Source: Xanthomonas cannabis pv. cannabis (lineage in GTDB: Bacteria; Pseudomonadota; Gammaproteobacteria; Xanthomonadales; Xanthomonadaceae). From it: DNA of 49,590 nt. Below the pieces are notes generated by a model. The model worked only from the letters and a program-made list of their open reading frames with translations, did no database searches and had not been told where the DNA came from. The position numbers and the translations under genes were made by a program. Numbering within the stretch: position 1 is the first letter of the stretch; the number at the start of each line of letters is the position of its first letter. The DNA lies in NCBI RefSeq assembly GCF_000802365.1, contig NZ_JSZE01000049.1, forward strand, positions 1 through 49,590. Reading direction: 5' to 3'. This document shows, piece after piece, positions 20,366 through 47,117 of this stretch.

Positions 20366-20465
20366 GGGATTGGAGATTCGGGAATCGGGAATCGGGAATC
20401 GGGAATCGGTTGAAGCACGCACCATGCCCGCCCTTGCAATTCCCCATTCCCGATTCCCGATTCAC
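20366..20465. repeat. Heptanucleotide inverted-repeat element E1 (GGGATTN/GGGAATC type), VOC-mutT gap
   Basis: The left arm 20366-20407 is six 7-nt units, the last four being exact GGGAATC (20380-20407). The right arm 20438-20465 is four units of the complement (NATTCCC). The 30-nt core is unrelated to the arms. It lies entirely between the VOC stop (20468) and the mutT start (20316). Confidence 0.85.
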
Positions 20466-21178: not shown

Positions 21179-24100
21179 TTAGAACGCCACCTTCCAGTTC
21201 AACTGCGCGCCCACCTCACGCTGACCATCGCCGGCACGTCCCTGTCCGACTAGCGACAGGCGACTGTTGGCGGAGGTGTTGAGGGAGACGCCGAGCTCGG
21301 CGATGCCGACATTGCGTGCCAGCGGTACACCGCCAACAGTAAATGTGCTGCTGCCGGCAACGAAGCGTTGCCTGGAATCGGCGCGTAGTTCACCGGCGGC
21401 ATTCTGCCAGGCCAAGCCAGCTTCCAGGCGTGCACCATCTTGCAGACCGCCACTGATATCCCAAGAAGCTCGCACGCCAGCGGTGGACGTCCACACTTCA
21501 TCCTTGCTGGCATCAATCGCCAGCGCCGCACTGCCGCCAGCTTCCACTCCCGCGTCAGTGGACAACCGCGTGTAAGCCGCGGCGACGTATGGGGTCAACG
21601 TGAGCGTCCCCAGCTCGAAGTCCCAGCCGCCCTCAACAAAAGCCGACACTGCGTCGGCGTCGTAACGACCGTCCAAGCGCTGGGCAATACCGGTTCCCAC
21701 GCCGACAGTGCGTTCGGTGTCTATCTGGTAGTCCGCATAGCTGGCACCGCCGTCGATCCATACAGCCTCGCCACGATAGCCAGCGTATAGCCCGGCATGC
21801 ACCGCATCGACGTCGGAGGACGCGTTACGCGCCTGGAGCTGCTGACGTAGCGACTCGGCACCGGCGGCAAGCCCGACCGTCCAACGCTCGCCAAACGACC
21901 AGTCCACACCGGCCATCAGGCCGTCGCGATTCTGGCGAGCACGGGCAGCGGAGCCATCACCATCCTGCCGATTGGAAGCGCCGCTGCCGGCGACCCAACC
22001 CGATGCACCGCCGTCTTCGGCGATGCTTGAGGTCTGACGCAGGTGCTGGCTGATCCCTTCGCGCAGGAAGCGATCCTCCAATAGCAGTGCCCGATTGCTG
22101 GCGTGGACTTCACCCGAGAGGTCATCGAATGCCGCACGGGCAGTATCGGCATCCATGATCAGCAGGCCGTTATAGAGCGCCAGTGCATCACCGGATTGCC
22201 GCAGCGTATCCAATGCCGCGGCGGTAGCACGCTGGTTGCCGCTGATTGCGACCGTACCGAACACCAAAGGCGGGGCAATGGGAGCAACCGGGGTGACAGG
22301 AGCGATCGGCGGCGCAGGTGTCACCGGCGTAACCGGATCGACCGGGGTGACCGGAGTACCCGGATCGACAGGTGGGGCCGGAGTGACAGGCGGAGTGGTG
22401 TCCTTCACCGCGAGGGTCAACTGCACCTGGTTGGCGGTATAGACAACGCTCGGGTCGATAAAGGCAGAGCGCGAGGTCACTTGGTCGAAGCGGCCCTGCA
22501 CCCCGCCAGCTGCCTCCAGAATCGTATATGTCTGGCCGTTCTGATAACTGACAGACGGGTCCAGCGCAGTCACGCGCAACGCGGCGTCGGCGGTGTTGGT
22601 CAAGCCGGAGGTACGGCCCAGATAGGCCGTGCCGCTCACGGCGAGCTGATCGCTCTGGCCGTTGCCGAGCACATCGACGTCATAGAACGAGGTGCCGCTA
22701 ATCGTGGCGCCCAACCCATTATTTGCAGCAAGGTATAGGTCTCCATCGAAGGTCATCTTGCCGATGCCGTTCTGGCCCGGCGACAAAGTGCCACCGTCGC
22801 CAAGAAAGGTGTCCCCGAGCCTGGCGTTACCGGCCAGGATGCCTTCGCCAGCTACCACAGCAATCGAGCTGCGTACAGTCTCGACCGTGCTACCCAGATT
22901 GATCTGTTGTTGAAAACCTGACGTACCGTTAAGCACAAGAGTGCCGCCGGACACAAGGATCTCCTGGACAAATGCTCGGCTAGGATCTGTGTAACCCTGA
23001 CCGGTATAAAGATCCGAGTTAATAATTAGCGTGCCGCCGGTGACATTGATCTCACCGCCGAACGCGGTCAGATTGCCATCCAGACGAGTGTTGCCAGAGA
23101 GTTGTAGCAGTTGCCCGCTAACCCACGAATTGCCGCTAGGCACGCTGCTGATGGCGTTCGGCAAGGTGGCATCGCCAGTGTGATTGAACACCAAACCACC
23201 GGAGTTCGCCTGCATCAAGATTGGCGATGCAGATAATTGCCCAGGCGCTTCGGCAGCGCGCCAGGCCGGCGCAGTGTTGGCGATCGACCACTGGTCCATG
23301 CCCCCACCTAAAGCCAGATAACCTGCGCTGCCCAGCGTAATCCCGCTGCCTCCATCGATGCGGCCGCCGCTGCTCGCGCTGAGCACGCCATACGGTTCAA
23401 ACACCGTGCCTCCAACGGTAAGGCCGTTGGCTGCTGCGATCGCTGATCCAACACCACTGACACGAACCTGATCGTGCTCAAGCCGGGGCGCAAACGTCGA
23501 GGAGTTAAGTCCGCCGGAAATCGATAAGGTATCCGTATTGATGACTGCGCCATCGAGTACCTCAACGTTGGTGAAGGTCCGCATCGCACCACTATTGGTC
23601 CAGCTGGAACCAGCACCGGTAAGTGTCGCGTTGGTCCGCGTATTGGCGTAGGAATCCTTGATGGTGGCAGTGGTCGAACGGATCGCCGCACCGCTTTCAA
23701 CCAGCAGCTCATTGCTGACATCCACGCGAGGGGCTTCGATCGCCGAACCGGCACCGCTGACCACGATACGGCCGGTCTGGCCAAAGTCGTCACTGATGCC
23801 GTTCGGGCGCTCAGCGCGCACGTCGGTGGTTGCGCGGAGCACAGCGCCGCCGGACAGGGTCAGACTTCCATCTCCGTTGGAGCCGACCGAGACCGTGTCT
23901 GCGTTGATCCTGCCCGTGCCGGTCACGGTCACCACGCCGCTGGAATCGCTCTGTACACCGAGCATCAGCTCTGCGGTATTGAGCTCACCGCCATCGGCCA
24001 CGTTCACGGTGCCATTGCTGGTGCCGTTGTTGGTAAGGTTGATGAGGGTGCCGCCCAGATGCACACCGCGGTCTGCGTTGACCGTGCCGCCGTTGCCGAC

Positions 24101-24865
24101 GTTGAGAGTGCCGTCGCGGACCATGCCGACCAACAAGAAATTGTCGGTGATGGCCAGAGTACCGCCGTTGCTGACATTGACCGTACCGGCGCCATTGGTG
24201 CTGTGACCAAGGCTCATGCCGTAGTCATTGACCACTGAGTAGGGCCGTGTTGTCGTGACGGTGCCGCCGTTGGTGATCTCCATGATGCCGGTGCCGCCGC
24301 GGCCGACGATGATATTGCGGGCGGTAAGTGCCGAGCCAGCACCAGTGACCAGCACATTGCCGGTACTGCCCTGCTGGTTGCCCAAGGTCATCAAGCCCGC
24401 CGTGGTGGCCTGACTGCCGTCCTGCAGGGTCATGTTGCCGATGCCGGCATCGCCCACGAGCAGGTCCCAGAATCCGCTATTGATGGCAAGGCGTGCCCCC
24501 GGGCCGGTGAGGCGCAGGGTGCCATTGCCGGCTGCGGTGCTGCCGAGAGAGATATCCTCCTCGGAAGTAACTACAGCGGTGCCGCTGACATCGACGACAA
24601 CGGTGCCGTTTGGGCCAACGCGAAAGCCCTCGGCATATACACGCGAGCTGGTGATGGTGTCATCGCTGTTGAAATCGAATACGGCGGCAAACCCGGAAGG
24701 CGCTGCAACCAGGCCGAGCGCAGCCAGCATCGCCGCAGTCAGCGGCGAACGATGGCTGACGCTGCCGGTGGCGCGGGCAGAGGAACCGTGAGACGTGGCC
24801 AATTCAGATGCAACCTGCATCGAGCCGGTGGCGCGGTTACGCACCAGGCGATAGATCCTGTTCAT
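21179..24865 (-). CDS. Type Va autotransporter (autotransporter beta-barrel protein)
   Basis: A self-exporting outer-membrane protein of 1,228 residues. It opens with an extended signal peptide region ([20 protein letters not shown]) followed by the hydrophobic signal [20 protein letters not shown]. The passenger (about 65-910) is beta-helical, built of irregular repeats such as [26 protein letters not shown] and [14 protein letters not shown] linker rich in PVTPV/PAPP (about 885-935) leads to the autotransporter barrel (about 960-1228), which ends in WKVAF with the terminal Phe needed for barrel assembly. The start at 24865 is fixed by the ESPR and by GGAG 5 nt upstream. No protease or lipase motif is visible in the passenger, so adhesion is a reasonable guess only. 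Confidence 0.93.
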
Positions 24866-25059
24866 GAAGCTCCATTTTGTAGATTGATCAAGGACACGAT
24901 GACGCCGCATTGCACGGATTTTCGTCGTGAGCTGAGACCCGGCGTCGTGCAGGCAACGCGGCTCACAAAGGTAAATGGTCATCGCGCCACGACCTAGGCC
25001 GACTGACCCGGTGCAGCGTGGGGATGCGCCTGACGGCAGTGTGGGGTTTTTCCTAGCAA

Positions 25060-32206: not shown

Positions 32207-32471
32207 GGAATTGGGGGGTGGGGATCGGGGATTCGCAACAGCGTTGGTCCCTGCCCACTCCGCATCACGGCGAGTGTTGTTGTTTGAAAGTCGGGCCTCG
32301 GTTGCGCGGTCATCGATGCGCTATGCGCTCAACGACTCACCACACCTGCTCCTCGACGCAATGCCTGCAAAAAAGTTTACCGCCTACCTGCTCGCCGCTC
32401 TCTACTTATCTTCGCCGCCGCCCTGCTTTTCTTTCGCTCTTTCCAATCCCGAATCTCAAATCCCGAATCCC
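32207..32471. repeat. Heptanucleotide inverted-repeat element E2, ftsA-ftsZ gap
   Basis: Left arm 32207-32234 is four degenerate units (GGAATTG, GGGGGTG, GGGATCG, GGGATTC). Right arm 32444-32471 is CAATCCC, GAATCTC, AAATCCC, GAATCCC. The 209-nt core is by far the longest of the set and probably carries the ftsZ promoter. The right arm ends 5 nt from the ftsA stop. Confidence 0.75.
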
Positions 32472-32476
32472 GGCCC

Positions 32477-33712
32477 TCAAAATTCGCCGCGATACCAGTT
32501 CTTCAATTTCTTGAACAAGCTGCCCGCGCGCCCGGTCGGGATCGACGGACGGCGCGGATGTTCGATCTGGCTGCCCATCAGCAGCAGGCCCACGCCGGAA
32601 GCGTGCACCGGGTTGCCGACGACTTCGCCCAGGCCGGTGACGTGCTGCGGAATGCCCACACGCACCGGCATCTGCAGCATTTCTTCGGCCAGCTCGACCA
32701 CGCCTTCCATCTTCGAGGCGCCGCCGGTGAGCACCATGCCGGCGCGCACCATTTCTTCAAAACCCGAACGGCGCAGTTCGGCCTGCACCATCTCGAAGAT
32801 TTCTTCGTACCGGCCTTGCACCGCCTGCGCCAGCGCATGCCGTGGCATGCGGCGCGGCGGGCGGTCGCCCACCGACGGCACCTGGATGCTTTCTTCGGCG
32901 GTGGCCAGCTGCGCCAGAGCGCAGGCATAGCGCACCTTGATCTGTTCGGCTTCCGGTGTGGGCGTGCGCAGCATGTGCGCGATGTCGTTGGTGACGTGGT
33001 CGCCGGCGATCGGCAGCGAGGCGGTGTGGCAGATCGCGCCTTGCACGTACACCGCCAGATCGGTGGTGCCGGCGCCGATGTCCACCAGCACCACGCCCAG
33101 CTCGCGCTCGTCGGCGGTCAGCACGGCCACCGAGGAGGCCAACGACGACAGCACCAGATCGTCCACCTGCAGGCCGCACTTCTGCACGCACTTGGTGATG
33201 TTGGCCGCGGCCGACTGCGCGCACACCACCAGGTGCGCGTGCACCTCCAGGCGCACGCCGGTCATGCCGACCGGGTTGCGGATGCCTTCCTGCGAATCGT
33301 CCAGCACGTACTCGCGTGGAATCGCATGCAGGATGCGCTGATCGGCCGGAATGGCCACGGCCTTGGCCGCATCGAGCACGCGTTCCAGATCGCTCCAGGT
33401 CACTTCGCCATCGCGGATCGGCACGATGCCGGGCGAGTTCTTGCACTGCACGTGGTTGCCGGAGATCGAGGCATACACCGAGCGGATTTCACAGCCGGCC
33501 ATCAGCTCGGCTTCTTCCACCGCACGCTGGATCGACTGCACGGTGGATTCGATATCCACCACCACGCCGCGCTTGAGACCGCGCGATTCATGCGAACCGA
33601 TGCCGATCACTTCGATCGGATTGCCGGGCGAATACTCGCCGACCAGCGCAACGACCTTGGAGGTGCCGATGTCCAGTCCAACGATGAGGGATTTGTCGCC
33701 TTTGCGGTTCAT
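32477..33712 (-). CDS. ftsA: Cell division protein FtsA
   Basis: Actin-family ATP-binding protein that tethers FtsZ filaments to the inner membrane and recruits later divisome proteins. The 411-residue sequence has phosphate-1 loop VGLDIGTSKVVALVGE (about 11-26), the 1c subdomain, phosphate-2 loop VLVDIGAGTTDLAVY (about 207-221), adenosine motif VLTGGASKMEGV (about 333-344) and a C-terminal amphipathic membrane-targeting helix (SLFKKLKNWYRGEF). Its ATG overlaps the ftsQ TGA (ATGA, 33712-33709), so it is translationally coupled even though the 3' end of ftsQ consists of a repeat element. Confidence 0.98.
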   Translation of the reverse strand: MNRKGDKSLIVGLDIGTSKVVALVGEYSPGNPIEVIGIGSHESRGLKRGVVVDIESTVQSIQRAVEEAELMAGCEIRSVYASISGNHVQCKNSPGIVPIRDGEVTWSDLERVLDAAKAVAIPADQRILHAIPREYVLDDSQEGIRNPVGMTGVRLEVHAHLVVCAQSAAANITKCVQKCGLQVDDLVLSSLASSVAVLTADERELGVVLVDIGAGTTDLAVYVQGAICHTASLPIAGDHVTNDIAHMLRTPTPEAEQIKVRYACALAQLATAEESIQVPSVGDRPPRRMPRHALAQAVQGRYEEIFEMVQAELRRSGFEEMVRAGMVLTGGASKMEGVVELAEEMLQMPVRVGIPQHVTGLGEVVGNPVHASGVGLLLMGSQIEHPRRPSIPTGRAGSLFKKLKNWYRGEF

Positions 33713-34536
33713 GTCTTAAAGCCGGGATTCGGGATTCGGGATACGGGATTGGGGAAACGCGGAAATGCCAGGGCGACGGGAGGTACGGAAGGTGTTGCGC
33801 GATGCCGGGGCTGCGCTTTTTCCAATCCCGAATCCCCACTCTCTAATCCCTGCCTTTCGACCGTGAAGCCATTGGTGTAGCGCAGGTCGGCGCGAGCGAT
33901 CGGGCGCTGCGGGTCGGCCAGCTGCGGCAGCACGCGCGCGAAGCGTTGCAGGCGGGCACGGGCATCGTCGCGGCCGATCACGATCTGCACGCCGTTGCTC
34001 AAGCCCAGCGACCAGCTGCCGCGCGCATCCATTTCAAGACGCTCCACATCCAGCCCGGTCGGTGCGAACAACGCGCGCGACTCGTTGTAGAGCGCCACCA
34101 CGTCCTGGGTCTTGCTGTCCGGGCCACCGAGTTGCGGCAACTTGAAATCCTTCAACAGCGGCGGGGTGCGGAACAAGCGGCCCTGCTCGGACAACATGCG
34201 GTCGGTGCCCCAGCGCGCGAACGGCTTGTGCTCGGTCACATGCACTTCCAGCACGTCCGGCCAACGCTTGCGCACCTGCGCACTTTCCACCCACGGCAAG
34301 CGCGCGATGGCGTCTTGCGCACTCTGCAACTTCACCGCGAAAAAGCCCGCGCGCGCATATGGCAGGACCACCGCACGCAACTGCTCGGCCGGCACCCGCT
34401 TGAAATCGCCCGACACCCGCAATCGCGCCAGCGGCCAGCGCTCGGCGCCGACCCAGCCATTGAGCACGGCCACCACCGGCAAGGCGACCAGCGCCACTGC
34501 GAGCAACCACGCCAGGATGCGCAGGGTGGCGTTCAT
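33709..34536 (-). CDS. ftsQ: Cell division protein FtsQ with repeat-encoded C-terminal tail
   Basis: Bitopic divisome protein linking early and late components with FtsB/FtsL. The 275-residue protein has a short cytosolic N-terminus, one membrane segment (LRILAWLLAVALVALPVVAVL, about 4-24), and a POTRA domain starting near RLRVSGDFKRVP. The beta domain ends at about TNGFTVERQG (230). The last 45 residues (231-275) are encoded by heptad-repeat element E3: ESGDSGLE comes from one arm and NPVSRIPNPG from the other. This tail is not part of the normal family. The ATG at 34536 (MNATLRIL) is preferred; one at 34551 adds five residues. The stop overlaps the ftsA start. Confidence 0.96.
   Translation of the reverse strand: MNATLRILAWLLAVALVALPVVAVLNGWVGAERWPLARLRVSGDFKRVPAEQLRAVVLPYARAGFFAVKLQSAQDAIARLPWVESAQVRKRWPDVLEVHVTEHKPFARWGTDRMLSEQGRLFRTPPLLKDFKLPQLGGPDSKTQDVVALYNESRALFAPTGLDVERLEMDARGSWSLGLSNGVQIVIGRDDARARLQRFARVLPQLADPQRPIARADLRYTNGFTVERQGLESGDSGLEKAQPRHRATPSVPPVALAFPRFPNPVSRIPNPGFKT
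33724..33850. repeat. Heptanucleotide inverted-repeat element E3, inside the ftsQ 3' end
   Basis: Left arm 33724-33751: GGGATTC, GGGATTC, GGGATAC, GGGATTG. Right arm 33823-33850: CAATCCC, GAATCCC, CACTCTC, TAATCCC. The core is 71 nt. The whole element is translated as the FtsQ tail and ends 12 nt before the coupled ftsA start. Confidence 0.85.
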
Positions 34537-34553
34537 GGGTGTGCTCCGCACAC

Positions 34554-34656
34554 GGGATTCGGCATTGGGGATTGGGGATTCGTCATGGCAACGGCGACAG
34601 CAACAACGCGCATGGCGCCGCCGTTCACCAATCCCGAATGCCGAATCCCCAATCCC
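34554..34656. repeat. Heptanucleotide inverted-repeat element E4, ddl-ftsQ gap
   Basis: Left arm 34554-34581: GGGATTC, GGCATTG, GGGATTG, GGGATTC. Right arm 34629-34656: CAATCCC, GAATGCC, GAATCCC, CAATCCC. Even the variant unit (GGCATTG/GAATGCC) is matched in the complementary position, so the arms pair through it. The core is 47 nt. It fills the ddl-ftsQ gap. Confidence 0.88.
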
Positions 34657-34660
34657 TGCG

Positions 34661-35719
34661 TCATAGCGTCTGCTCCAGCACGCGCCAGACCAGTTCTTCG
34701 AAGTCGATGCCGAGCTGGTGGGCGGCCTTGGGCACCAGCGAGTGGCTGGTCATGCCCGGGGCGGTGTTGACCTCAAGCAGATAGAGCTGGCCGCTGCTGC
34801 CATCGCGCATCACGTCCACGCGGCCCCAGCCGCGGCAGCCGGCAGCGCGGAAGGCGTCCAGGGCGAGCTGGCGGATCTGCACTTCGGCTTCGCCCTCCAG
34901 ACCCGGGCACAGGTATTGCGTATCGTCGGCCAGGTATTTGGCGTTGTAGTCGTACCACTGGCCCTTGGGCACGATGCGGATCGACGGCAACGCGGTATCG
35001 CCGAGCACGGCAACGGTCAGTTCATCGCCTTCGATCAATTGCTCCATCAACAGCGCACCGTCGTAGCGGGCAGCCAGGGTCACCGCCTCTTCGAGTTGCG
35101 CCTGGTCGAACACGCGGCTGACGCCGACGCTGGAGCCTTCGTTGGCCGGCTTGACGATGACCGGCAAGCCGATCTGCCGGGCCGCGGCATGGATGTCGTC
35201 GGCGCTGGCGCCGGCGGCCAGACGCGCGTAGCGCGGCGTGCTCAGGCCCAGCGACAGCCACACCTGCTTGGTGCGGATCTTGTCCATGCTCAGCGCCGAG
35301 CCGAGCACATCCGAGCCGGTGTACGGCACGCCGAACGCTTCCATCAGGCCCTGCACGATGCCGTCTTCGCCACCGCCGTTATGGCCGTGCAGCACGTTGA
35401 AGACGCGATCGAACTGCTGTGCGACCAATGCCTTGGCCAACGCCGGAATGCCATCGACCGGCTGTGCATCCACACCGCGTGCGCGCAGCGCTTCCAGCAC
35501 ATTGCTGCCGGAGTTCAACGAGACTTCACGCTCGGACGAGGTGCCGCCGAGCAGCACCGCAACGCGGCCGAATGCGGCCGGGTCGCTGGAGCGTTTGTGA
35601 AGGCCGGGACCCGGGACCCGGGACTCGGGACCCGTTACAGCGGCATGCATGCGCTGATTGCCCTGCTGTTCCCCGGTCCCGGGTCCCGGGTCCCGGGTCC
35701 CGATAGAAGACATGCTCAC
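34661..35719 (-). CDS. ddl: D-alanine-D-alanine ligase with repeat-encoded N-terminal extension
   Basis: ATP-grasp enzyme making D-Ala-D-Ala for the peptidoglycan stem peptide. The family fold starts at [20 protein letters not shown] (about 50-69) and continues with [20 protein letters not shown] (about 107-126), [15 protein letters not shown], the Mg-binding [18 protein letters not shown] and a C-terminal Leu-rich end. Residues 7-41 (GTRDPGPGT ... ESRVPGPG) are encoded by GGGACCC-type element E5. The GTG start at 35719 overlaps the murC TGA (GTGA) and has GGGGGTG upstream, so the extension is probably translated. A later ATG at 35650 would still include one repeat arm. Confidence 0.95.
35606..35701. 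repeat. Heptanucleotide inverted-repeat element E5 (GGGACCC type), inside the ddl 5' end
   Basis: Left arm 35606-35633: GGGACCC three times and GGGACTC once. Right arm 35674-35701: CGGTCCC then GGGTCCC three times. The core is 40 nt. It is translated as part of Ddl. Confidence 0.9.
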
Positions 35720-37149
35720 GCCGCACCCCCGACAAACCCGTTGTTGATGATGTGCTGGGCCACATAGCCGATATCGCCGGCACCCATCATCAACAGCAGG
35801 TCGCCGTCCTGCAGCACGTCGGGCAACACTTCGGCCAGGCCGGAAATCTGGCCCACGACCACCGGCTCGCTGCGGCCGCGCGCACGGATGGCGCGTGCCA
35901 GTGCACGCGAATCGGCGCCGGGGATCGGCGCTTCGCCGGCCGGGTAGACCTCGCTCAACACCAGTGCATCGACCGTGCTGAGCACTGCGGCGAAGGCGTC
36001 GAACTGGTCACGGGTGCGGCTGTAGCGGTGCGGCTGGAAGGCCACGACCAGACGCTTGTCCGGCCAGCCGCCACGCGCTGCCGCAAACACCGCTTCCAGT
36101 TCGCGCGGGTGATGGCCGTAATCGTCGACCACGCGCACACGTGCGCCGGTGCTGGTGGTGACTTCGCCCAGATCGTTGAAACGACGGCCGATGCCGGCGA
36201 AGTTTTCCAGCGCGCGCGCAATGGTCTGCGGCTCCACGCCCAGCTGCCAACCGATTGCGGCGGCGGCCAGGGCGTTGAGCACGTTGTGACGGCCCGGCAG
36301 CGCCAGGGTGACCGGCGTGGTGGTGCCTTCGGGCAGACGCAGCGTAAAGCGCATGCGCGGGCCGTCCTGCACCACGTCCTCGGCGCGCACATCGGCGCTT
36401 TCGCTCATGCCGTAGCTCATCACGTGGCGCGGCGTCTTGCCGGCCAGTGCAGCCACTTCCGGGTCGTCGATGCACAACAGCGCCAGGCCATAGAACGGCA
36501 GGCGCTGCAGGAATTCGGCGAATGCGGCCTGCACGCGGGCGAAGTCGTTGCCGTAGTTTTCCAGGTGATCCGAATCGATGTTGGTGATCACCGCCATCAA
36601 CGGATTCAGGCGCAGGAAGCTGCCATCGCTCTCGTCGGCTTCGGCCACCAGCCACTGGCCGCCACCGAGCTTTGCGTTGGCTCCGGCGGCCAGCAGCTGC
36701 CCGCCGATGACGAAGGTCGGGTCCAGGCCACCTTCGCTCAGCACGGCTGCCGCCAGGCTGGTGGTGGTGGTCTTGCCATGCGTGCCGGCCACGGCGATAC
36801 CGCGGCGGAAGCGCATCAGCTCGGCCAGCATCGCTGCGCGCGGCATGATCGGAATGCGCTGGCTGCGCGCTTCCATCAGCTCGGGGTTGTCTTCGCGGAT
36901 GGCGCTGGACACCACCACGCAATCGGTGCCGAGCACGTTGGCGGCGGAGTGGCCGCGCATCACGCGCGCACCCAGCTTGGCCAGCCGCCGCGTCGCCGCG
37001 TTATCGGAGTTATCCGAACCGGAGACTTCGTAACCCAGCGTCAGCATGACCTCGGCAATACCGCTCATGCCGGTGCCGCCGATGCCGACGAAATGCACGC
37101 GCGGAAATGCGCGCACCAGGTCGCCACTGTCCTGCAGACGGCGGATCAC
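35716..37149 (-). CDS. murC: UDP-N-acetylmuramate-L-alanine ligase
   Basis: Cytosolic ATP-dependent ligase adding the first residue of the peptidoglycan stem peptide. The 477-residue protein has the N-terminal substrate domain ([20 protein letters not shown], about 19-38), the P-loop [13 protein letters not shown] (about 114-126), the central-domain [10 protein letters not shown] and a C-terminal domain with [13 protein letters not shown]. The GTG start (37149-37147) overlaps the murG TGA (GTGA). A strong Shine-Dalgarno GGAGGTG lies 6 nt upstream but is in the 3' arm of a perfect 9-bp hairpin, so initiation should depend on ribosomes arriving from murG. Confidence 0.98.
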
Positions 37150-38408
37150 AGGGCACCTCCTGCGGAGGTGCCGGGATTGGGGATTGGGGATTCGGGATTG
37201 GTGGCGATCAACTGCGCGGAGCGGTCGCCATTAACGGATTTCTGCATGCTGTCCTGCTTGTGCTGTTGCTCTTTACGAATCCCCAATCCCGAATCCCCAC
37301 TCCCGGCCTCCTGGAGAATGATGTCGGCGATCCGCTCGGCGGCGTCCGGCTTGGCCAGGGTGCGGGCGGCTTGCGCCATCGACAGGCGACGGGCCGGGTC
37401 GTTGAGCAAGGTCTGCAGGAGCTGTTGCAGACGCACCGCGAGGCTGTCGTCCTGCTTGAGCAGCACGGCGGCATCGGCGCTGACCAGGTATTCGGCATTG
37501 CGGGTTTGATGGTCGTCCACCGCTGCGGCGAATGGCACCAGCACGCTGCCGATGCCGGCGGCGCACAGTTCGGCCAACGTGGATGCACCGGCACGGCACA
37601 CGACCAGATCGGCCCAGGCATAAGCAGCCGCCATGTCGGCGATGAAGGGTTCGACACTGGCGTTGACCCCTGCCTGTGCGTACGACGCTTCGGCTTCGGC
37701 GCGCAGCTTTTCGCCGCACTGATGGCGCACCTCGACATCCGGGTGACCGAGTGTAGCCAGCGCGGCCGGTACGGCCTGATTCAATGCCCGTGCGCCCTGG
37801 CTGCCGCCAAGCACCAGCAGGCGCACCGGGCCATCGCGACCCACCAGACGTGCAGCCGGCGCAGGCAGTGCGGCAATGTCGGCACGCACCGGGTTGCCGA
37901 CCGCTTCCTCGCCGGCGAAGCTGCCCGGGAAACCGGTCAGCACGCGGCGCGCAAAACGCGACAGCACCTTGTTGGTCATGCCGGGCGCGCGGTTCTGTTC
38001 GTGCACCAGCAGCGGCGTGCCGAGCAGGCGCGCGGCCAGGCCGCCCGGGCCGGCCGCAAAGCCGCCAAAGCTGATCACCGCACGCGGCTGGCGCTTGCGC
38101 AGCACGAAGCCGGCGGCGCGCACCGCGCGCATCACCCGCACCGGTGCACCCAGCAACTTCACCACGCCCTTGCCACGCAGGCCGCTGATGGCCAGGGTGT
38201 CGATCTGGATGTCGTGCTGCGGCACCAGACGGGTTTCCATTGCGCCATCGGCGCCCAGCCAGGTCACCCGCACGCCGCGCGCGCGCAATACCTTGGCCAC
38301 GGCCAACCCCGGGAAGATATGCCCGCCGGTGCCGCCAGCCAGAATCATCACAGGCCGAGCTCCGGCAGACGCTGCGGATGCTTGCGAGGCAGTCGCATCA
38401 ACACTCAT
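37146..38408 (-). CDS. murG: UDP-GlcNAc:lipid I GlcNAc transferase MurG, repeat-extended
   Basis: Peripheral inner-membrane GT-B glycosyltransferase that converts lipid I to lipid II. The 420-residue protein has the N-terminal glycine loop [17 protein letters not shown] at about 22-38, [20 protein letters not shown] (about 110-129), [18 protein letters not shown] (about 195-212) and the UDP-GlcNAc site [13 protein letters not shown] (about 268-280). The normal protein ends near residue 367 ([10 protein letters not shown]). The last 53 residues are encoded by element E6 ([15 protein letters not shown], then [10 protein letters not shown]). The ATG overlaps the ftsW stop (ATGA, 38408-38405). 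Confidence 0.97.
37152..37172 (-). promoter_or_regulatory. Hairpin sequestering the murC Shine-Dalgarno
   Basis: In the mRNA GGCACCTCC-GCA-GGAGGTGCC forms a perfect 9-bp stem with a 3-nt loop. Its 3' arm is the murC Shine-Dalgarno (GGAGGTG), 2 nt plus the coupled GTG behind it. The hairpin lies in murG coding sequence, so translation of murG would melt it. Confidence 0.8.
37173..37304. repeat. Heptanucleotide inverted-repeat element E6, inside the murG 3' end
   Basis: Left arm 37173-37200: GGGATTG, GGGATTG, GGGATTC, GGGATTG. Right arm 37277-37304: GAATCCC, CAATCCC, GAATCCC, CACTCCC. The core is 76 nt. It directly abuts the murC Shine-Dalgarno hairpin (37152-37172). Confidence 0.9.
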
Positions 38409-39769
38409 GCGATCCTCCCGAACGTCGGTTCCACACGCGGCTGCATACGGCTGGTGCCGCGCAAGATCGCCGATGCCGGTGCCACCGAGGCGGCAGCGAC
38501 CGGTGCGGCGGCCGCAGCGGTCTCGCGCTGCGGCTTGCGCGCTGGCGAATACGTCGGCGCCGCCGCGTCGGCGATAGGTTCGGCCGGCTCGGCAGCCGCA
38601 GTGCCCGCACCCTGCGGCGACAACTTGCTGCGCAGGCGCTCGGCGCGATCCATTTCATAGGACACGCGCAGCAACAGGCCCATCGCCACGCAGGTCATCA
38701 GCACCGACGAACCGCCGGAGGAAATCAGCGGCAGGGTCAGGCCCTTGGTCGGCAGGATGCCCAGGTTGACGCCCACCGACACAAAACTCTGCAGGCTGAT
38801 CCACAGGCCGATGCCGAACGCGATATAGCCGGAGAAGTGGCGCTTCATTTCCACGCAGCGCATGCCCAGCCAGAACGCGCGGCCGACCAGCAGCGCGTAC
38901 AGCGCAATGACACCGCAGACGCCGACGAAACCCAGCTCTTCGGCGATCACCGAGAAGATGAAGTCGGTATGCGCCTCGGGCAGATAGTTGAGCTTCTGCA
39001 CCGAGGCGCCCAGGCCCGCGCCGGTCCACTGGCCACGGCCGACTGCCATCAAGGCGTTGGACAGCTGATAGCCGGAGCCAAGCTGGTCGGCCCACGGGTC
39101 CAGGAACGAGGTGATGCGACGCAGGCGGTACGGCTCCAGGATCGCGATGAAGGCGAACACCGGCAGGCCGAACACGATCGGCATCGACATGCGCGGCAGG
39201 TTCACCCCGCCCAGCACCAGCATGCCGGCGGTGATCGCCAGCAGCAGCGTGGACGAGCCGAAGTCCGGCTGCATCAGCAGCAGGCCAACCAGCGCGATGG
39301 CCACGCCCAGCGGCTTGAGCATGGCCGGCCAGGTGGCGTTGACTTCATCGCGGAAGCGCACCAGGTAGCTGGACAGCCACACGATGTAGAGCACCTTGAC
39401 CGCCTCGACGGTCTGGAACTTGGACACGCCCAGGTTGATCCAGCGCTTGGCGCCGTTGACGCTGCTGCCCAACCCCGGTACGAACACCACCATCAGCAGG
39501 CCGAAGCAGGCCAGCAGCAACACCTGGTTGTATTGCTCGATGGTCTTGAGCTCGGTGCGCATCGCCCAGAACGCCAGCCCGATGCCGATGCCCAGGAACA
39601 GCAGGTGACGGGTCAGGTAATAGAACGGGTTATCCGACAACTCGATCGAGCTGGAGGCCACCATCACCACGCCCAGCGAGGCGAGCGTGGCGGCCGCGCC
39701 GAGCAACCACGGGTCGTAACGACCGCCGATGGCGTCCAGTCGCGTGGCCTGGCGGGACATGTCGTTCAT
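38405..39769 (-). CDS. ftsW: Peptidoglycan glycosyltransferase FtsW
   Basis: SEDS-family membrane polymerase working with FtsI at the septum. The 454-residue protein has about ten transmembrane segments. It carries the family motifs [20 protein letters not shown] (about 109-128), [20 protein letters not shown], the long periplasmic loop with [20 protein letters not shown] and the signature [19 protein letters not shown] cytosolic Ala/Pro-rich tail (about 380-454) is longer than in E. coli. The ATG at 39769 shares its A with the mraY stop (TGATG). An ATG nine nt downstream is an alternative. Confidence 0.97.
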
Positions 39770-40854
39770 CAGCGCACCTTCAACGTGGCAAGGCCGATCA
39801 GCACCAGCACCACCGAAATGATCCAGAAGCGCACGATCACCCGCGGCTCCGGCCAACCCTTGAGTTCGAAGTGGTGATGGATCGGCGCCATGCGGAACAC
39901 GCGCTTGCCGGTCAGCTTGAAGCTGGCCACCTGGATCATCACCGACAGGGTTTCGATCACGAACACGCCGCCCATGATCACCAGCACCATTTCCTGGCGC
40001 ACGATCACCGCGATGGTGCCGAGCACCGCGCCCAGCGACAGCGCGCCGATATCACCCATGAACACCATGGCCGGATAGGTGTTGAACCACAGAAAGCCCA
40101 GCCCTGCCCCGGCGATCGCCGAGCAGATGATGATCAGCTCGCCGGCACCGGGAATCAGGGGGATCTTCAGGTATTCGGCAAACACCACGTTGCCCGAGGC
40201 ATAGGCGAACACGCCCAGCGCGCAGGCCACCAGCACGGTCGGCATGATCGCCAGGCCGTCCAGGCCGTCGGTGAGGTTCACCGCGTTGGAGAAGCCCACG
40301 ATCCAGAAATAGGCGATCACCACGAAGCTCACGCCGGCCAGCGGCAACGCAATCGACTTGAACATCGGAATGTAGAAGGTGATCGCCGCCGGCACGTCGG
40401 CGGTGTAGTACAGGAACAGGCCGGCCGCCAGGCCGAAGATCGACTGCAGCAGGTATTTCCAGCGCGATTTCAGACCATTGGGGTCGCGGCGGACGATCTT
40501 GATCCAGTCGTCGTACCAGCCGATCGCGCCGAAGCAGATCATCACCGCCAGCACCAGCCACACATAACGGTTGCGCAGGTCGCCCCACAGCAGCACCGAC
40601 AAGGTGACGGTGAGCAGGATCAGCGAGCCGCCCATGGTCGGCGTGCCGGCCTTGGAGAAATGCGTCTGCGGGCCGTCCTGGCGGATCGGCTGGCCACCCT
40701 TGAACTGGGCCAGCTTGCGGATCACCGCAGGGCCCATCCACAACGACAGGAACAGCGCGGTCAGCGCAGCCAGGATGCCGCGGAAGGTCAGATAGTTGAA
40801 CAGCCCGAACAGGCTCTCCAGTTGCTGCAGCCAGCGCGCCAACTCAAGCAGCAT
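39769..40854 (-). CDS. mraY: Phospho-MurNAc-pentapeptide transferase
   Basis: Integral membrane enzyme that makes lipid I from UDP-MurNAc-pentapeptide and undecaprenyl phosphate. The 361-residue protein has about ten membrane segments and the conserved catalytic motifs GGSLILL and GYDDWIK-like [17 protein letters not shown] (about 111-127), [15 protein letters not shown] (about 191-205) and [15 protein letters not shown] (about 323-337). The ATG at 40854 matches the family start and has GGAGG 9 nt upstream; an ATG at 40863 directly touches that Shine-Dalgarno and is rejected. It overlaps the end of murF by 11 nt. Confidence 0.98.
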
Positions 40855-42406
40855 GGGAGGCATCCTCCGCCGGTGCGAGCAACGCGGTGACGATGCGGTC
40901 CATGGCGCTGCCGCGCGACCCCTTTACCAGCAGCGTGATGGCGCGGGGACCCGGGACCCGGGACCCGGGACCCGTAGAAGCGGGCGCGGGCTGCGACTGT
41001 TGTTGTTCTATCAAAGCGTGTTCCTGCGCATTTTCTGATGCGTCGTGCTGTTGCTGTTGCTGTTGCTGTTCCTGGGTCCCCGGTCCCGGGTCCCCGGTCC
41101 CGGCTTCGGCAAGATCCGCCCGCAACGCCTCGATCAGTTCCGCATGCGTGGCAAACACCCGGCCACCTTCACCGAACGCCTGCGCGGCGGCTGCACTGAG
41201 TTCGCCCAATGCATACAGACGCTGCAACTTGGCCGCGCGTGCGCGCCGGCCGGCAGCGGCATGCAGCGCGGCGCCTTCCGGGCCGAGTTCGCGCATGTCG
41301 CCCAGCACCAGCCAGCCATCGCCCGGCGCGGCAGCCAGTGCATCGATGGCCGCGTCCAGCGAGCCGGGGTTGGCGTTGTAACTGTCGTCGATCAACAACG
41401 CGCCGCCGGGCAGCCGATGCGTGATCTGCCGGCCGGCCACCGGGCGCGCCTGCGCCAGGCCGGCGGCAATGACCGGCAACGCGATGCCGGCGCCGAGCGC
41501 CAGGCCGGTCGCCGCCAGGGCGTTGAGTACGTTGTGGCGACCGGGCAGCGGCAGCGCAATCTGCGCCTCGCCCTGCGGCGTCACCAGCGTGAAGTGTGCA
41601 CCGTCGGCCTGCAGCCGCAGCTGGCGTGCACTGATGTCGGCGCTGGCCTGCAGGCCATAGCGCAACACGCGACGGCCCTGCAGCGGCTGCGCCAGCAGTT
41701 GCTGCTCGAACCAGGCGCCGAAGGCGTCGTCGGCGTTGATGACCGCCACGCCATCGGCCGGCAGCGCGGCGTAGATGGCGCCCTTGGTCTGCGCCACGCC
41801 GAGCAGGCTGCCCAGGCGCTCCAGATGCGCTGGCGCGATATTGTTGACCAGGGCGACCTGCGGCCGCGCGATGTCGGTGAGATAGGCGATATCGCCCGGC
41901 TTGCCGGCACCCATTTCGTAGATCGCCACGTCGGCATCGTCCGGCGCGGCGATCACCGCCAGCGGCAGGCCGATTTCGTTGTTGCGGTTGCCCGGCGTGG
42001 CATAGACGGTGGTGCCGTCCACGCGCCCGGCTTCGGTCAGGATCGACAGCAGCAAGGCCTTGACGCTGGTCTTGCCGTTGGAACCGGTCAGCGCGACCAC
42101 GCGGGTGGCGCGGTCGCGCTGCATCCCGGCGGCGATCCGCGCCAACGCCAGCTCGGCATTTTCCACCACCACCTGCGGCACGCGCAGCGCCGGCAACAGG
42201 CGCTCCACCAGCAACCCGCTGGCGCCGTGCGCCACTGCCTCTGCGGCAAAGTCGTGCCCATCGAAACGCTCGCCACGCAGCGCCACGTACAGGCTGCCGT
42301 TGGACAGCGTGCGCGTGTCGTTGCTCACCGCATCGATCATGGCGTCGTCGCCCTGCAGCTCGCCGCCCGCCCAGTGCGCAATCAACGACAACGGGGTGAG
42401 CTTCAT
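40844..42406 (-). CDS. murF: UDP-MurNAc-tripeptide-D-Ala-D-Ala ligase MurF with an internal repeat-encoded insertion
   Basis: Cytosolic ligase adding D-Ala-D-Ala to UDP-MurNAc-tripeptide. The 520-residue protein exceeds the usual roughly 450. The P-loop [16 protein letters not shown] is at about 104-119, followed by [14 protein letters not shown] (137-150), [21 protein letters not shown] and [10 protein letters not shown] (340-349). Between the helix ending ALRADLAE and the strand [11 protein letters not shown], in the C-terminal domain, lie about 54 extra residues (435-488): GTGDPGPGT, a glutamine-rich stretch, then [10 protein letters not shown]. These come from element E7. Conserved sequence resumes in frame after it, so this is an insertion, not a tail. 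The ATG overlaps the murE stop (ATGA). Confidence 0.96.
40856..40868 (-). promoter_or_regulatory. Small hairpin containing the mraY Shine-Dalgarno
   Basis: In the mRNA GGAGG-ATG-CCTCC can fold with the Shine-Dalgarno as 5' arm, just before the mraY ATG at 40854. It lies inside the murF coding sequence. The stem is only 5 bp, so the effect is uncertain. Confidence 0.45.
40946..41101. repeat. Heptanucleotide inverted-repeat element E7 (GGGACCC type), inside murF
   Basis: Left arm 40946-40973: GGGACCC four times exactly. Right arm 41074-41101: GGGTCCC and CGGTCCC alternating, two each. The 100-nt core is CAG/CAA-rich in the coding sense. Read in frame within the murF C-terminal domain. Confidence 0.92.
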
Positions 42407-43890
42407 GCGCGCACTCCCAGCGTGGTGCGCGGCAGCAAGGCCTGCGCGGCCACGGCGGCATCGTCGAACGCATGCCGCACGCCAGAGACTTCCTGGTAAG
42501 GCTCGTGGCCCTTGCCGGCGATCAAGACGATGTCGGCGGCGCTGGCCATGCCGATGGCCTGATGGATCGCGGCGGCGCGATCGCGCTGCACGATGACCGC
42601 GTCCGGGTGCGCAAAGCCGCGCAGGATGTCGGCCACGATCGCATCGCCGTCTTCGCCGCGCGGGTTGTCGTCGGTGACGATCGCCACATCGGCATTGAGC
42701 TCGGCAATCGCCGCCATCTGCGGGCGCTTGCCGGTGTCGCGTTCGCCACCGCAACCAAGGACGCAGATCAACCGGTCCTGCGCATGCGAACGCAGGCTGG
42801 CCAAGGCCTGTTCCAGCGCATCGGGGGTGTGCGCGTAATCCACCACCACCAGCGGCGCGCCGTGGGCGCCGCCGAGCCGGTTCATGCGGCCGTGGATCGG
42901 CTGCAGCTGCCCAAGCACATCGGCGATCCGCGCTGGCGCATGGTCCAGCGCAGACAACGCGCCAGCCACTGCCAGCAGGTTGTCCACATTGAAGCGCCCC
43001 AGCAACGGTGAGCGCACCGCATGCGCCCCACCGGCGATGTGCAGCGCGAAATTGATGCCGGTGTGGTCCAGCTGCAGATCGCTGGCGCTTACGCCGGCAT
43101 CGGCCTGCCCGCGTGAACTCACACCGATCGCGCGCAGCGCAGGATCGAGCGAGGCAAACAGCGTGCGGCCGAAGCCATCGTCCAGATTCACCACCGCCGC
43201 CTTCAGCCCGGCACGGGTGAACAGCCTGGCCTTGGCGGCGCCGTACTGCGCCATGTCGCCGTGGTAATCGAGATGGTCGCGGGTGAGATTGGTGAACACC
43301 GCCACGTCGAAATGCACCGCATCCACGCGGCCCTGGTCGAGCGCGTGCGAGCTGACTTCCATGGCCACCGCCTGCGCACCCTCATCGCGCAGCTGCGCCA
43401 GCAGCGCATGCGTGGACAGCACCAGCGGCGTGGTGAAGCCGGTGGGCACGGCAGCGCCGTACAGGCCGACGCCCAGCGTACCGAGCGTGCCTGTGGGTGT
43501 GCCGAGCAGGGTCAGCGCCTGCGCCAGCAGCTGCACGGTGGAGGTCTTGCCGTTGGTGCCGGTGACGCCGAGCATGCGCAGCGCGCGCGACGGATGGCCA
43601 TGGAACTGGTCGGCCATGCGGCCCAGCCGCGCGCGCAGGCCCGGCACGGCGATCGCATCGGCCGGCGCCGGCAGATCGGCCGGTGCGGGCGGCTCGAACA
43701 ACACCGCCACCGCGCCATTGGCACGCGCCTGTTCGACAAAGCCCAACCCGTGTGCGCCGAAACCGGCGATGGCCACGAAGGCATCGCCCGGACGGACCGC
43801 GCGGCTGTCCATCACCAGGCCCGACACCTGCACGTCGTGCGCCAGCGTCAGGTCCGGCAACAGCTGCGACAGCGGCAGCGAGCGGCTCAC
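42403..43890 (-). CDS. murE: UDP-MurNAc-dipeptide-meso-diaminopimelate ligase
   Basis: Adds the third stem-peptide residue. The 495-residue protein has the P-loop [15 protein letters not shown] (about 108-122), the conserved [13 protein letters not shown] (about 176-188), [12 protein letters not shown] (about 199-210), [16 protein letters not shown] and the DNPR motif (TDDNPRGED, about 409-417), which selects meso-diaminopimelate over lysine. A lysine-based peptidoglycan is therefore unlikely. The GTG start (43890) overlaps the ftsI TGA (GTGA). Confidence 0.98.
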
Positions 43891-45758
43891 TGGCGGCTCT
43901 CCTGCAGCGGCGCGGGTTGCGCGGATGCAGGCGCTGCCGGCGGCGGCGCGACGGCGGTCGGAATACCGGCCGAGACTTCATCCACCGGATCAGGCACCAG
44001 CGCCGGATCCAGATCGACCGGCTGCGGTTTGACGATCGGCTGGCCGGTCTTGCCGGCGGCCTGCGCGGCCAGCCACGACTGGATATCGTCCGGCGGCACG
44101 TCCATCAGGCGCAGCGCACCTTCCATCACGCGATGGAAGACCGGCGCGGAGACCAGGCCGCCGTAATACACCTTGCCCTGCGGATCGTTGATCACGATCA
44201 CCGTGGCAAAGCGCGGGCGCGTGGCCGGCACCAGGCCGGCAAACAGCGCGTTGTAATGCCCGCGTTCGTAGCCGTTGGCGCCGTTCTTGCGTGCCGTACC
44301 GGTCTTGCCGGCCACGTGGTAGCCCAGGATCGCCGCGCCCTTGGCGCCGCCCTGGGTGACCACGGTTTCCATCATGTCGATGACCTGGCGCGCTACTTCC
44401 GGCGTCACCACCTGGCGGGTTTCGTTGTGCTGGCCGCGCACGAAGGTCGGCGGTGTCAGCTTGCCGCCGTTGCCCAGCGTGGCGTAGGCCTGCGCGATCT
44501 GCAGCGGCGTCACCGACAGGCCGTAGCCGTACGACATCGTGGTCTTGGACGGGCCGCTCCAGCGTGCCGGCTGCAGCACCACACCGGACGATTCGCCGGG
44601 GAACCCGCTGTGCGGTGCGCTGCCATACCCGAAGTTGCGGATCGACTGGTAGAAGGTCTGGTCCGGCACCTTGGCGGCAATCTTGGCCGCACCGATGTTG
44701 GAGCTGCGGGTGATCACGCCGGTGACGTTGAGCACGCCGTTGTTGCGCGGCACATCGCGGATGGTGAAGCGCCCCACCGACATGAAGCCGGGGTTGGTGT
44801 CGATGACGGTGTCCTTGGTCACCACGCCGGCGGTCAGTGCGGTGGCCACGGTCAGCGGCTTCATCGTCGAGCCCGGCTCCACCAGGTCGGTGACGGCGCG
44901 ATTGCGCCGCGCCGACGGGTTGATCCCGGTCACCGAATTGGGGTTGTAGGTCGGCAGGTTGACCATGGCCAGCACTTCGCCGGTGGCCACGTCCATCACC
45001 ACCATCGACCCGCCGGCCGCATTGTTTTCGACCAGCGCGTTGCGCAGTTCCTTGTAGGCCAGGAACTGGATGCGCCGGTCGATGCTCAGGGTCAGGTCCT
45101 TGCCCGGCTGCGCCGGACGCACCAGATCCACGCTCTCCACGATGGCGCCGCGCGCATCGCGCACCACCTTCTTGGAGCCGGGCTTGCCGCGCAACCATTC
45201 GTCGAACGCCAGCTCCAGTCCTTCCTGGCCGCGGTCGTCGATGTTGGTGAAGCCCAGCACGTGGGCCATCGCTTCGCCTTGCGGATAGAAGCGACGGAAC
45301 TCGCGCTGCGAAAACACGCCCGGGATCTTCAGATCGACGATCGCATGCGCCTTGTCCGGATTGATCCGGCGCTGCAGGTACATGAACTCCTTGCCGGCCT
45401 TCTGGGCCAGCTTGGCGTTCAGCTCATCGAGCGGTTGGCCCAGTGCCTTGGCCAGCTCGGGAATGCGGTCCGGGTTGCGCAGCAGTTCCTGCGGATTGAC
45501 CCAGATCGATTCCACCGGCGTGGACACCGCCAGCGGCTCGCCGTTGCGGTCGGTGATCATGCCGCGCGAAGTGGCGATGGGCAGCTCGCGCAGGTAACGC
45601 GCTTCGCCCTGGCGCTGATAGAAATCGCGGTTGACCAGCTGCACATAGGCTGCCCGGCCGATCAGGGTGACCGAGCACAGCCCCAGCGCCACGCCCACCA
45701 AGGTGAGGCGGCCGCGCAGGTTGAAATTGCTGCGGGGGCGGTTGCGACCGGCCTTCAC
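43887..45758 (-). CDS. ftsI: Septal peptidoglycan transpeptidase FtsI (PBP3)
   Basis: Class B penicillin-binding protein that cross-links septal peptidoglycan. The 623-residue protein has a cytosolic N-terminus, one membrane anchor ([21 protein letters not shown], about 18-38), the pedestal domain, and a transpeptidase domain with STMK (nucleophile S297, K300), SSN (352-354) and KTG (485-487). A proline/alanine-rich tail from about 575 is extra relative to E. coli. It starts at GTG 45758, supported by GGGGAGG with 6-nt spacing. It lies 55 nt downstream of ftsL and overlaps murE by 4 nt. Confidence 0.98.
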
Positions 45759-45813
45759 CGCGCACCTCCCCGCAGGCAGCTCGGCCGTGCAAAACGGCTG
45801 TCGCGCGAATTCG

Positions 45814-46077
45814 TCATGGGCGCACCACCACGATGTCGTTGGTCTCCGGGAACTTCATCCCGATGCGCGCACGCGCGACCTGATCGACACGATTGCTTTC
45901 CGCCCAGGTGGCCTGCTCCAGCTGCAGCCGGCCGAATTCGATGTTCAATTCATCGCGCGTGTGTTCGAGCTTGGACAACTGCACGAACAGCTTGCGATGC
46001 ATGTGGCGCATGTACACCACCCCGATCGCCGAGGCGATGCTGCAGGCCAGCAGCACGATGAGCAGCAAGCGGCTCAT
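45814..46077 (-). CDS. ftsL: Cell division protein FtsL
   Basis: A short bitopic divisome protein that, with FtsB and FtsQ, activates FtsWI. The 87-residue protein has one transmembrane helix ([20 protein letters not shown], about 4-23) followed by a periplasmic coiled coil ([20 protein letters not shown]), then [19 protein letters not shown]. The ATG (46077) overlaps the rsmH stop (ATGA). Its Shine-Dalgarno AAGGAG lies in the loop and 3' arm of a perfect 8-bp hairpin, so translation is probably coupled to rsmH. Confidence 0.96.
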
Positions 46078-47117
46078 GCGGCGTCTCCTTGAGACGCCGG
46101 GATTGGGGATTGGGGATTGGGGATTCGCGCAGAGCGCTCCTCCAATCCCGAATCACGACTCCCGACTCCCAGCTTCTCGGCTACCCGCAACACCGCGCTG
46201 CGCGCGCGCGGGTTGATGCTCAGTTCGGCATCGTCGGCCTTGATCGCGCCGCTGACCAGTTGCAGCGTCGGTACGAAGGGTTGCGCTTCGGGCAGGCGGC
46301 GATTGCTTGGTGGGGCCTTGGCGTAGCGGGCCATGAACTGCTTGACGATGCGGTCTTCCAGCGAATGGAAGCTGATCACCGCCAGCCGGCCGCCCGGCTT
46401 GAGCGCGCCCAGCGCAGCGTCCAGGCCGGCTTCCAGGTCGGCCAGCTCACGATTGATGTGGATGCGGATCGCCTGGAAGCTGCGTGTGGCCGGGTGGGTC
46501 TTGCTGTCGCCGCGCGGCATCACCGAGGCGATCAGGTCGGCCAGCTGCGCGGTACGCAGTAGCGGCTGTTCGGCACGACGCGCGACGATAGCGCGCGCAA
46601 TGCGGCGGCTCTGGCGTTCTTCGCCATAGGTCCACAGCACGTCGGCGATCTCGCGGTCGCTGGCGTGGGCCAGCCACTCGGCTGCGCTCTGGCCGCTGTC
46701 CGGGTCCATGCGCATATCCAGCGGGCCGTCCTTGCCGAAACTGAAACCGCGCCCGGCCACGTCCAGCTGCGGCGAGGACACGCCCAGGTCCAGCAGGATG
46801 CCGTCGACGGTCGCTGCGGCAACCACCTGGCCGAGGCCGGCAAAGCTGCCGCGATGGATGGACACGCGCGCATCGCCACCGAACGCCTGTTCGGCCACTG
46901 CGATCGCTTCAGGGTCCTTGTCCATCACCAGCAGTCGACCTCCCGGGCCAAGGTGTTCCAGCACGCCGCGTGCGTGTCCGCCACGCCCGAACGTGCCATC
47001 GAGATAGGTTCCGCCTTCGGTCACCTGCAGGCCATCCAGAACCTGCGTGTACAGCACCGGCACATGGGCCGCCGGCGGCTGCGACACCGGGTGACCGGGC
47101 TGCGCTTCACCGCGCAT
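46074..47117 (-). CDS. rsmH: 16S rRNA (cytosine-1402-N4)-methyltransferase, repeat-extended
   Basis: SAM-dependent methyltransferase acting on C1402 of 16S rRNA. Motifs are [13 protein letters not shown] at the start, the SAM site [16 protein letters not shown] (about 38-53), [15 protein letters not shown] (about 105-119), [20 protein letters not shown] (about 241-260) and [15 protein letters not shown] near the normal end. The last 31 residues ([20 protein letters not shown] onward) come from element E8. I chose the ATG at 47117, which has GGGG 7 nt upstream. A GTG at 47135 that overlaps the mraZ stop (GTGA) is a real alternative and would add six residues. Confidence 0.95.
46080..46098 (-). 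promoter_or_regulatory. Hairpin sequestering the ftsL Shine-Dalgarno
   Basis: In the mRNA GGCGTCTC-AAG-GAGACGCC is a perfect 8-bp stem with a 3-nt loop. The Shine-Dalgarno AAGGAG spans the loop and 3' arm, 7 nt before the ftsL ATG. It lies in rsmH coding sequence and directly abuts element E8. Confidence 0.75.
46099..46170. repeat. Heptanucleotide inverted-repeat element E8, inside the rsmH 3' end
   Basis: Left arm 46099-46126: GGGATTG three times and GGGATTC. Right arm 46143-46170: CAATCCC, GAATCAC, GACTCCC, GACTCCC. The core is only 16 nt, the shortest of the set. Translated as the RsmH tail. Confidence 0.88.

Follow-up and report, generated by a model that had tools for sequence, protein, structure and literature searches.

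What are long inverted repeats doing in the reading frames of an essential bacterial operon? The question is raised by a 49,590-nucleotide (nt) stretch of Xanthomonas cannabis pv. cannabis (contig NZ_JSZE01000049.1, positions 1 to 49,590; hereafter the window), in which the division and cell wall (dcw) cluster carries elements built of two inverted arms of GGGA heptamers around a core. The MurC encoded in the window shares 97–98% identity with its counterparts in six Xanthomonas records (L031-L036). All eight elements of the original prediction, E1 to E8, were found at their coordinates, and the inverted two-arm design was borne out. Seven of them lie in the dcw cluster, as had been claimed, but the family is not confined to it, since the same genome has matches elsewhere. 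Repeats that have been filed as intergenic are here mostly located within the reading frames of the dcw cluster. Our best explanation, to which we give a probability of about 0.6, is that they are stem-forming cassettes that are swapped between species as units and are kept translatable in the dcw operon for translational coupling. Unit types are called AAT, ATT and ACC after the middle bases of GGGAATN, GGGATTN and GGGACCN heptamers, and the elements are as follows.

20366..20465, E1, AAT-type: upstream of a Nudix/ThiE-like gene.
32207..32472, E2, ATT-type: between ftsA and ftsZ; junction frame not kept across species.
33715..33840, E3, ATT-type: encodes the FtsQ C-terminus and precedes the ATGA overlap with ftsA.
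34550..34660, E4, ATT-type: between ddl and ftsQ.
35600..35705, E5, ACC-type: in the N-terminal part of the Ddl open reading frame (ORF).
37165..37310, E6, ATT-type: encodes the MurG C-terminus and precedes the GTGA overlap with murC.
40940..41105, E7, ACC-type: inside the murF coding region.
46092..46172, E8, ATT-type: encodes the RsmH C-terminus and precedes the ATGA overlap with ftsL.

The original prediction took the family to be nameless and new. It is known: a description that already covers the inverted pairs was given by Rehm et al. (2015; PMC4692102). Their paper reports (GGGANTN)n heptamer repeats in Xanthomonas and Nostoc, with 186 and 183 repeats in two Xanthomonas genomes, a preference for four units and quadruplex formation in vitro as followed by circular dichroism. 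It also gives 70 and 75 convergent pairs per genome, 83% conservation of context and an intergenic location for 89–93% of the repeats, which is a bias rather than a requirement. Three consecutive GGGAWTS units gave 101 forward and 97 reverse overlapping matches in the X. cannabis genome, and three GGGACCS units gave 19. The reversed-pattern control gave none in either case, and with 198 GGGAWTS matches against 0 the family is far more frequent than the chance occurrence raised as a doubt in the original prediction. Among the matches listed for this genome, together with the window, neighbouring arms formed 33 convergent, 0 divergent and 9 same-direction pairs, and the dcw loci of 34 other Xanthomonas genomes contained 155 convergent pairs and no divergent one. 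A family scan with three GGGAHYS units, a pattern whose control also matches in a few genomes, found at least one match in 139/247 genomes and 41/54 genera, some with just one. Other unit variants in the family include arrays of GGGAACG and GGGACTC (G087, G211, G196). Unpaired arrays of 9–13 heptamers are found in L137, L138, L139, L140 and L144, and some of these switch unit midway, e.g., from GGGATTC to GGGAATG.

The seven dcw junctions were compared in 35 Xanthomonas genomes (G000-G034, G000 being the genome of the window). They are labeled J8 (rsmH-ftsL, where G016 was not covered), J7 (inside murF), J6 (murG-murC), J5 (murC-ddl), J4 (ddl-ftsQ), J3 (ftsQ-ftsA) and J2 (ftsA-ftsZ). In the window the arms can indeed be read as heptapeptides, as had been proposed: E3 and E5 to E8 are located within ORFs (5/8), C-terminally in RsmH, MurG and FtsQ, N-terminally in Ddl and internally in MurF, and E4 fills a small ORF of its own. 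Junction length modulo three is constant in 34/34 genomes at J8, in 35/35 at each of J7, J6, J5 and J3, and in 34/35 at J4 (the exception is G028), even though each of these junctions has 5–14 distinct lengths. The corresponding spread at J2 is 13/12/10 over the 35 genomes. At J8 no stop interrupts the upstream frame within the element in any of the 34 genomes, and at J6 and J3 this frame reaches identical last codons in 35/35. The core of E7 (positions 41046-41074) also holds a run of TGCTGT hexamers that gives a polyglutamine stretch within the MurF ORF.

At J4 the element occupies an ORF of 31–62 codons in 34/35 genomes, with an ATGA or GTGA start over the ddl stop and a TGA end over the ftsQ start. 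The same layout was found in Pseudoxanthomonas (L045, L046) and Luteimonas (L055), all of which have a long J4. This junction is merely 26–59 nt in 15/19 measured relatives, and in L037 it is 136 nt with no detectable arms. A predicted hairpin holding the Shine-Dalgarno sequence of the next gene directly follows the 3' arm at J8 (34/34 genomes), J6 (34/35) and J4 (30/35), as counted under a lenient minimum-energy rule, and in some species stems are altered on both sides. In the window these features are located as follows.

34533..34664, minus strand: 43-codon ORF filled by E4 (coordinates derived from the ORF and element positions); its ATG start overlaps the ddl stop in ATGA, and its TGA stop overlaps the ATG of ftsQ.
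34539..34553, minus strand: predicted hairpin with the ftsQ Shine-Dalgarno sequence, directly after the E4 arm.
37152..37172, minus strand: predicted hairpin with the murC Shine-Dalgarno sequence, directly after the E6 arm.
46080..46098, minus strand: predicted hairpin with the ftsL Shine-Dalgarno sequence, directly after the E8 arm; stem altered on both sides in some species.

The layout of J8, J6 and J4 is that of translational coupling, and coupling of the neighboring genes may be expected from it.

Arm anatomy was studied in 43 regions of the X. cannabis genome (≈100 of the 198 GGGAWTS matches and all GGGACCS matches) together with the window. Read inward, an arm tends to consist of an outer GCC, about four heptamers and an inner GYAANRGC. 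The outer GCC is only loosely kept (consensus 0.59, 0.52 and 0.67 per base). Arm size had been thought constant at four units; four is the mode (49/95 arms) within a range of 2 to 13. Most arms of E1 to E8 contain four G-tracts. The variable last base N of the unit is, as claimed, nearly always C or G (201/222 GGGA units), but the suggested cause, stop avoidance, covers only part of this: as only N = A makes a stop codon, it accounts for the missing A and leaves the rare T unexplained.

Nor is the core wholly unrelated between sites, as its ends tend to GYAANRGC. The motif was exact in 17/64 and within one mismatch in 35/64 of the inner 8-mers from which it was itself derived, with backgrounds of 0.05–0.09% and 0.7–1.9%, respectively. 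Unpaired arms of the same genome outside this derivation set had 7/29 exact and 10/29 within one mismatch, and two further loci, K1 and K2, in other Xanthomonas had 9/42 and 11/42. In other genera the counts were 0/14 and 7/14, and GGAAAAGC recurs there. When cores from different junctions were compared, 10/107 pairs were alike at p ≤ 0.005; core ends have about 8 nt in common.

The unit sequence varies by site while the two arms of one site agree, as had been noticed. Among the matches listed, 31/33 pairs in the X. cannabis genome have arms of the same type (shuffled mean 17.5, p < 5e-5), and 26/28 do so when the ACC pairs are left out (p = 0.001). Across species, both arms could be detected around a core of 15 nt or more in 162 of 244 junction-genome cases, and in 146 of these both arms were of one type. 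The predicted RNA folds of E1 and E3 to E8 beat 100 shuffles each, with z from -2.5 to -9.3.

The type also tends to be shared by the whole genome. Cross-junction agreement within genomes was 237/280 against a shuffled mean of 141.6 and a maximum of 174, counted over J8, J6, J4, J3 and J2 for AAT and ATT only, with ACC and empty sites left out. Among 23 fully typed genomes, 17 have a single type. K1 and K2, which in G007 are ≈69 kb apart and ≈700 kb from the dcw cluster, could be typed in 29/35 and 30/35 genomes, and agree with the dcw type in 105/133 (shuffled 67.9) and 119/139 (shuffled 71.7) comparisons. The genome-wide share of ATT follows the local type (Spearman 0.76, 33 genomes), and G024 is almost entirely ACC (45/47 three-unit matches). 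Yet the type is not a marker of the sequence beside it. With empty and ACC counted as states, J8, J6, J4, J3 and J2 require at least 12–16 changes of type on the dcw tree, on which recombination may have left its own mark. Flanks diverge about equally in genome pairs of the same and of different type, and the type is thus not linked to the neighboring sequence. Genomes therefore tend each to have a dialect of unit type, and sister species can have different ones.

Dialects were compared in five close pairs, which were selected for being different. Types differ at 7/7 loci in G005/G015, at 6/7 in G008/G027 and G010/G017, and at 5/7 in G006/G007 and G020/G021. By distance of the K1 and K2 flanks, G005/G015, G006/G007 and G010/G017 are mutual nearest neighbors, and G008/G027 and G020/G021 each fall within one close group; the flanks in these pairs are ≈94–99% identical (1–6% divergence). 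Across the 21 discordant dcw pair-loci, divergence was 4.8% within 50 nt of the element, 4.0% at 50–150 nt and 3.9% beyond, misaligned far flanks being left out. As divergence to possible donors is ≈6.7%, this flat profile indicates replacement that is close to element-sharp. At J3 of G007, 100 nt on each side is identical to G004 and G023, which indicates homologous recombination at that site.

At the loci compared, species share two or three cassette alleles, which have AAT, ATT or ACC arms and mostly a core of their own. Differences between species mostly affect arms and core at once, as one cassette, rather than single arms. We considered conversion of the arms in place with the core kept, but cores of different type at one junction are mostly not clearly alike, and cassette replacement fits better. 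The median z for likeness of AAT and ATT cores is 1.0 at J8, J6 and J3, 3.7 at J4 and 16.8 at J2, where it includes a conserved stretch before ftsZ; for AAT and ACC cores at J6 it is 3.3. Some cores of different type may thus be common in origin.

A mechanism that would join these observations starts from convergent arms (outer GCC, about four heptamers, inner GYAANRGC) that flank a locus-specific core, so that either strand could fold into one long stem. Cassettes would be exchanged between species, most likely by short-tract homologous recombination, and a genome tends to carry one type throughout, which the seven loci and the genome-wide counts show. In the dcw elements other than that between ftsA and ftsZ, ribosomes would read through to the ATGA or GTGA overlap and unfold the hairpin that covers the next Shine-Dalgarno sequence, by which translational coupling would be kept. 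What holds a genome to one dialect might, as a guess, be recognition in trans.

Several results weigh against this explanation. The original prediction had expected arm covariation that maintains pairing, but N positions do not pair between arms: N is the same in 38–43% of 92 unit pairs where 44% is expected, so that the evidence speaks for a shared unit type and not for base-by-base compensation. Systematic anti-pairing at N, suggested by E4 and E8, was dropped on the same figures. The predicted fold of E2 is no more stable than those of its shuffles (z 0.0), and this element is also out of frame. Detectable arms are absent in 25/35 genomes at J5 (an 80-nt junction there, the site of E5) and in 24/35 at J7, and are therefore dispensable at these places; the constant frame at J5 and J7 counts these armless genomes too, and inside murF a constant frame is expected in any case. 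Mixed types occur in 6/23 fully typed genomes. Other close groups than the five chosen pairs, e.g., G018/G019, do not differ in type, and any exchange has left only a faint footprint in the flanks (4.8% divergence within 50 nt against 3.9% beyond 150 nt). Finally, the shuffle tests ignore the kinship of the genomes, and their p values are thus guides only.

The same dialects could also come from an exchange or uptake signal like the DNA uptake sequences (DUS) of Neisseriaceae, with a receptor that reads the arm type and import centered on the elements, so that cassettes are replaced by others of the same dialect. Dialect coherence and the nearly element-sharp allele swaps are as expected from such a signal, DUS dialects exist in Neisseriaceae (PMC3630211), and FimT of Xanthomonas campestris binds DNA (PMC8897410). 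However, Xylella FimT3 bound DNA without sequence preference according to PMC9956873, and the copy number of the elements is in the hundreds. A minor-pilin receptor that follows the dialect was looked for and rejected: the FimT/GspH pair swaps along with the dialect in 3/5 close pairs, which is striking, but over 34 genomes, with the all-ACC G024 left out, haplotype against dialect at this one locus is 12/2 versus 12/8 (Fisher p = 0.14), and a third FimT-like match scores equally in G006 and G007. We regard the uptake signal as unlikely. The minor-pilin pair itself (e.g., L340-L344) exists as two very different haplotypes, A1/B1 in 25/35 and A2/B2 in 10/35 genomes, and G006 and G007 do not have the same one despite ≈99% identity of their dcw genes. 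It is rather less credible that the elements are frozen lineage markers, in which palindromic heterology blocks homologous recombination while gene flow homogenizes the genes around them. This would explain a type that is unlinked to its flanks yet coherent within genomes, but it needs near-complete overwriting of the genome in several close pairs (1–6% apart at K1 and K2), 6/23 genomes are mixed, and J3 of G007 was imported together with its flanks.

Two other origins are both improbable. Simple-sequence repeats that arise by slippage and are held near four units by quadruplex selection would agree with the four-unit mode and with unpaired arrays of up to 13 units, and slippage is discussed in PMC4692102 beside quadruplex formation in vitro. 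This reading is already disfavored, as the recurrent inner motif, the convergent-only pairs, the arm-type matching and the dialect do not follow from slippage. An element still mobilized by a transposase (Y1/RAYT, the transposase associated with repetitive extragenic palindromic (REP) sequences, or another), like REP sequences or miniature inverted-repeat transposable elements, would have the observed terminal-inverted-repeat layout, patchy presence in the family and in-frame insertions. Against it, each locus has cores of its own, which are met there again in other Xanthomonas, no clear target-site duplication was seen by eye at J5, and the X. cannabis genome has no PF01797 match despite 225 heptamer pattern matches. 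RAYT mobility was dropped on this last result, from a search limited to Y1 transposases. G239 (C1) combines 339 heptamer pattern matches with 17 scored matches to Y1 transposases; of those listed, nearly all contain an in-frame TAG.

A family that had been classed among intergenic quadruplex repeats, with no function assigned to it, sits in the reading frames of an essential operon, and its unit type tends to be common to a whole genome and to differ between sister species. The role of these repeats, as well as the cause of concerted change at unlinked bacterial loci, can now be tested. A bolder extension, which we think doubtful, is that genomes of Xanthomonadaceae carry a genome-wide palindromic signal with dialects, recognized in trans by machinery for uptake or exchange; cassettes at unlinked loci would then turn over together once this reader changed, which may have taken place between sister species. 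Apart from these elements, the window has on the minus strand (positions 21179-24982) a large autotransporter-like ORF with repeats associated with type V secretion systems (T5SS) and PEP-CTERM.

Among known systems, the palindromic elements of Rickettsia also lie in frame inside protein genes. They have one consensus along the whole element, whereas here the core varies by locus, apart from about 8 nt shared at its ends, and the arms alone seem to form the family. REP sequences and bacterial interspersed mosaic elements, which go with RAYT, are dispersed palindromes near gene ends, as here; the genome of the window differs in having no Y1 transposase match (0 in G000). As with the DUS of Neisseriaceae (PMC3630211), the repeat variant characterizes a genome and is not the same in its relatives, and the genome-wide dialect is found here too, with mixed genomes. 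Unlike DUS, the Xanthomonas cassettes are longer, composite and far fewer, their dialect differs between sister species, and a candidate cognate minor-pilin receptor did not significantly follow it (p = 0.14, 34 genomes, one locus). The closest relatives are the heptamers of Rehm et al. (2015), and among the papers listed we noticed no second description of convergent pairs outside PMC4692102. In the passages of that paper's main text that we consulted, we noticed no mention of a GGGACC type, recurrent arm ends, arm-type matching, dialects or in-frame use in named essential genes. The unit, the genus, the preference for four units (49/95), the convergent pairs (33:0 and 155:0) and the conserved gene context are the same in both. 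E5 and E7, being of ACC type, are not covered by the published (GGGANTN)n formula, and instead of being mostly intergenic, the repeats of the dcw cluster lie at junctions of which six out of seven are in open frames.
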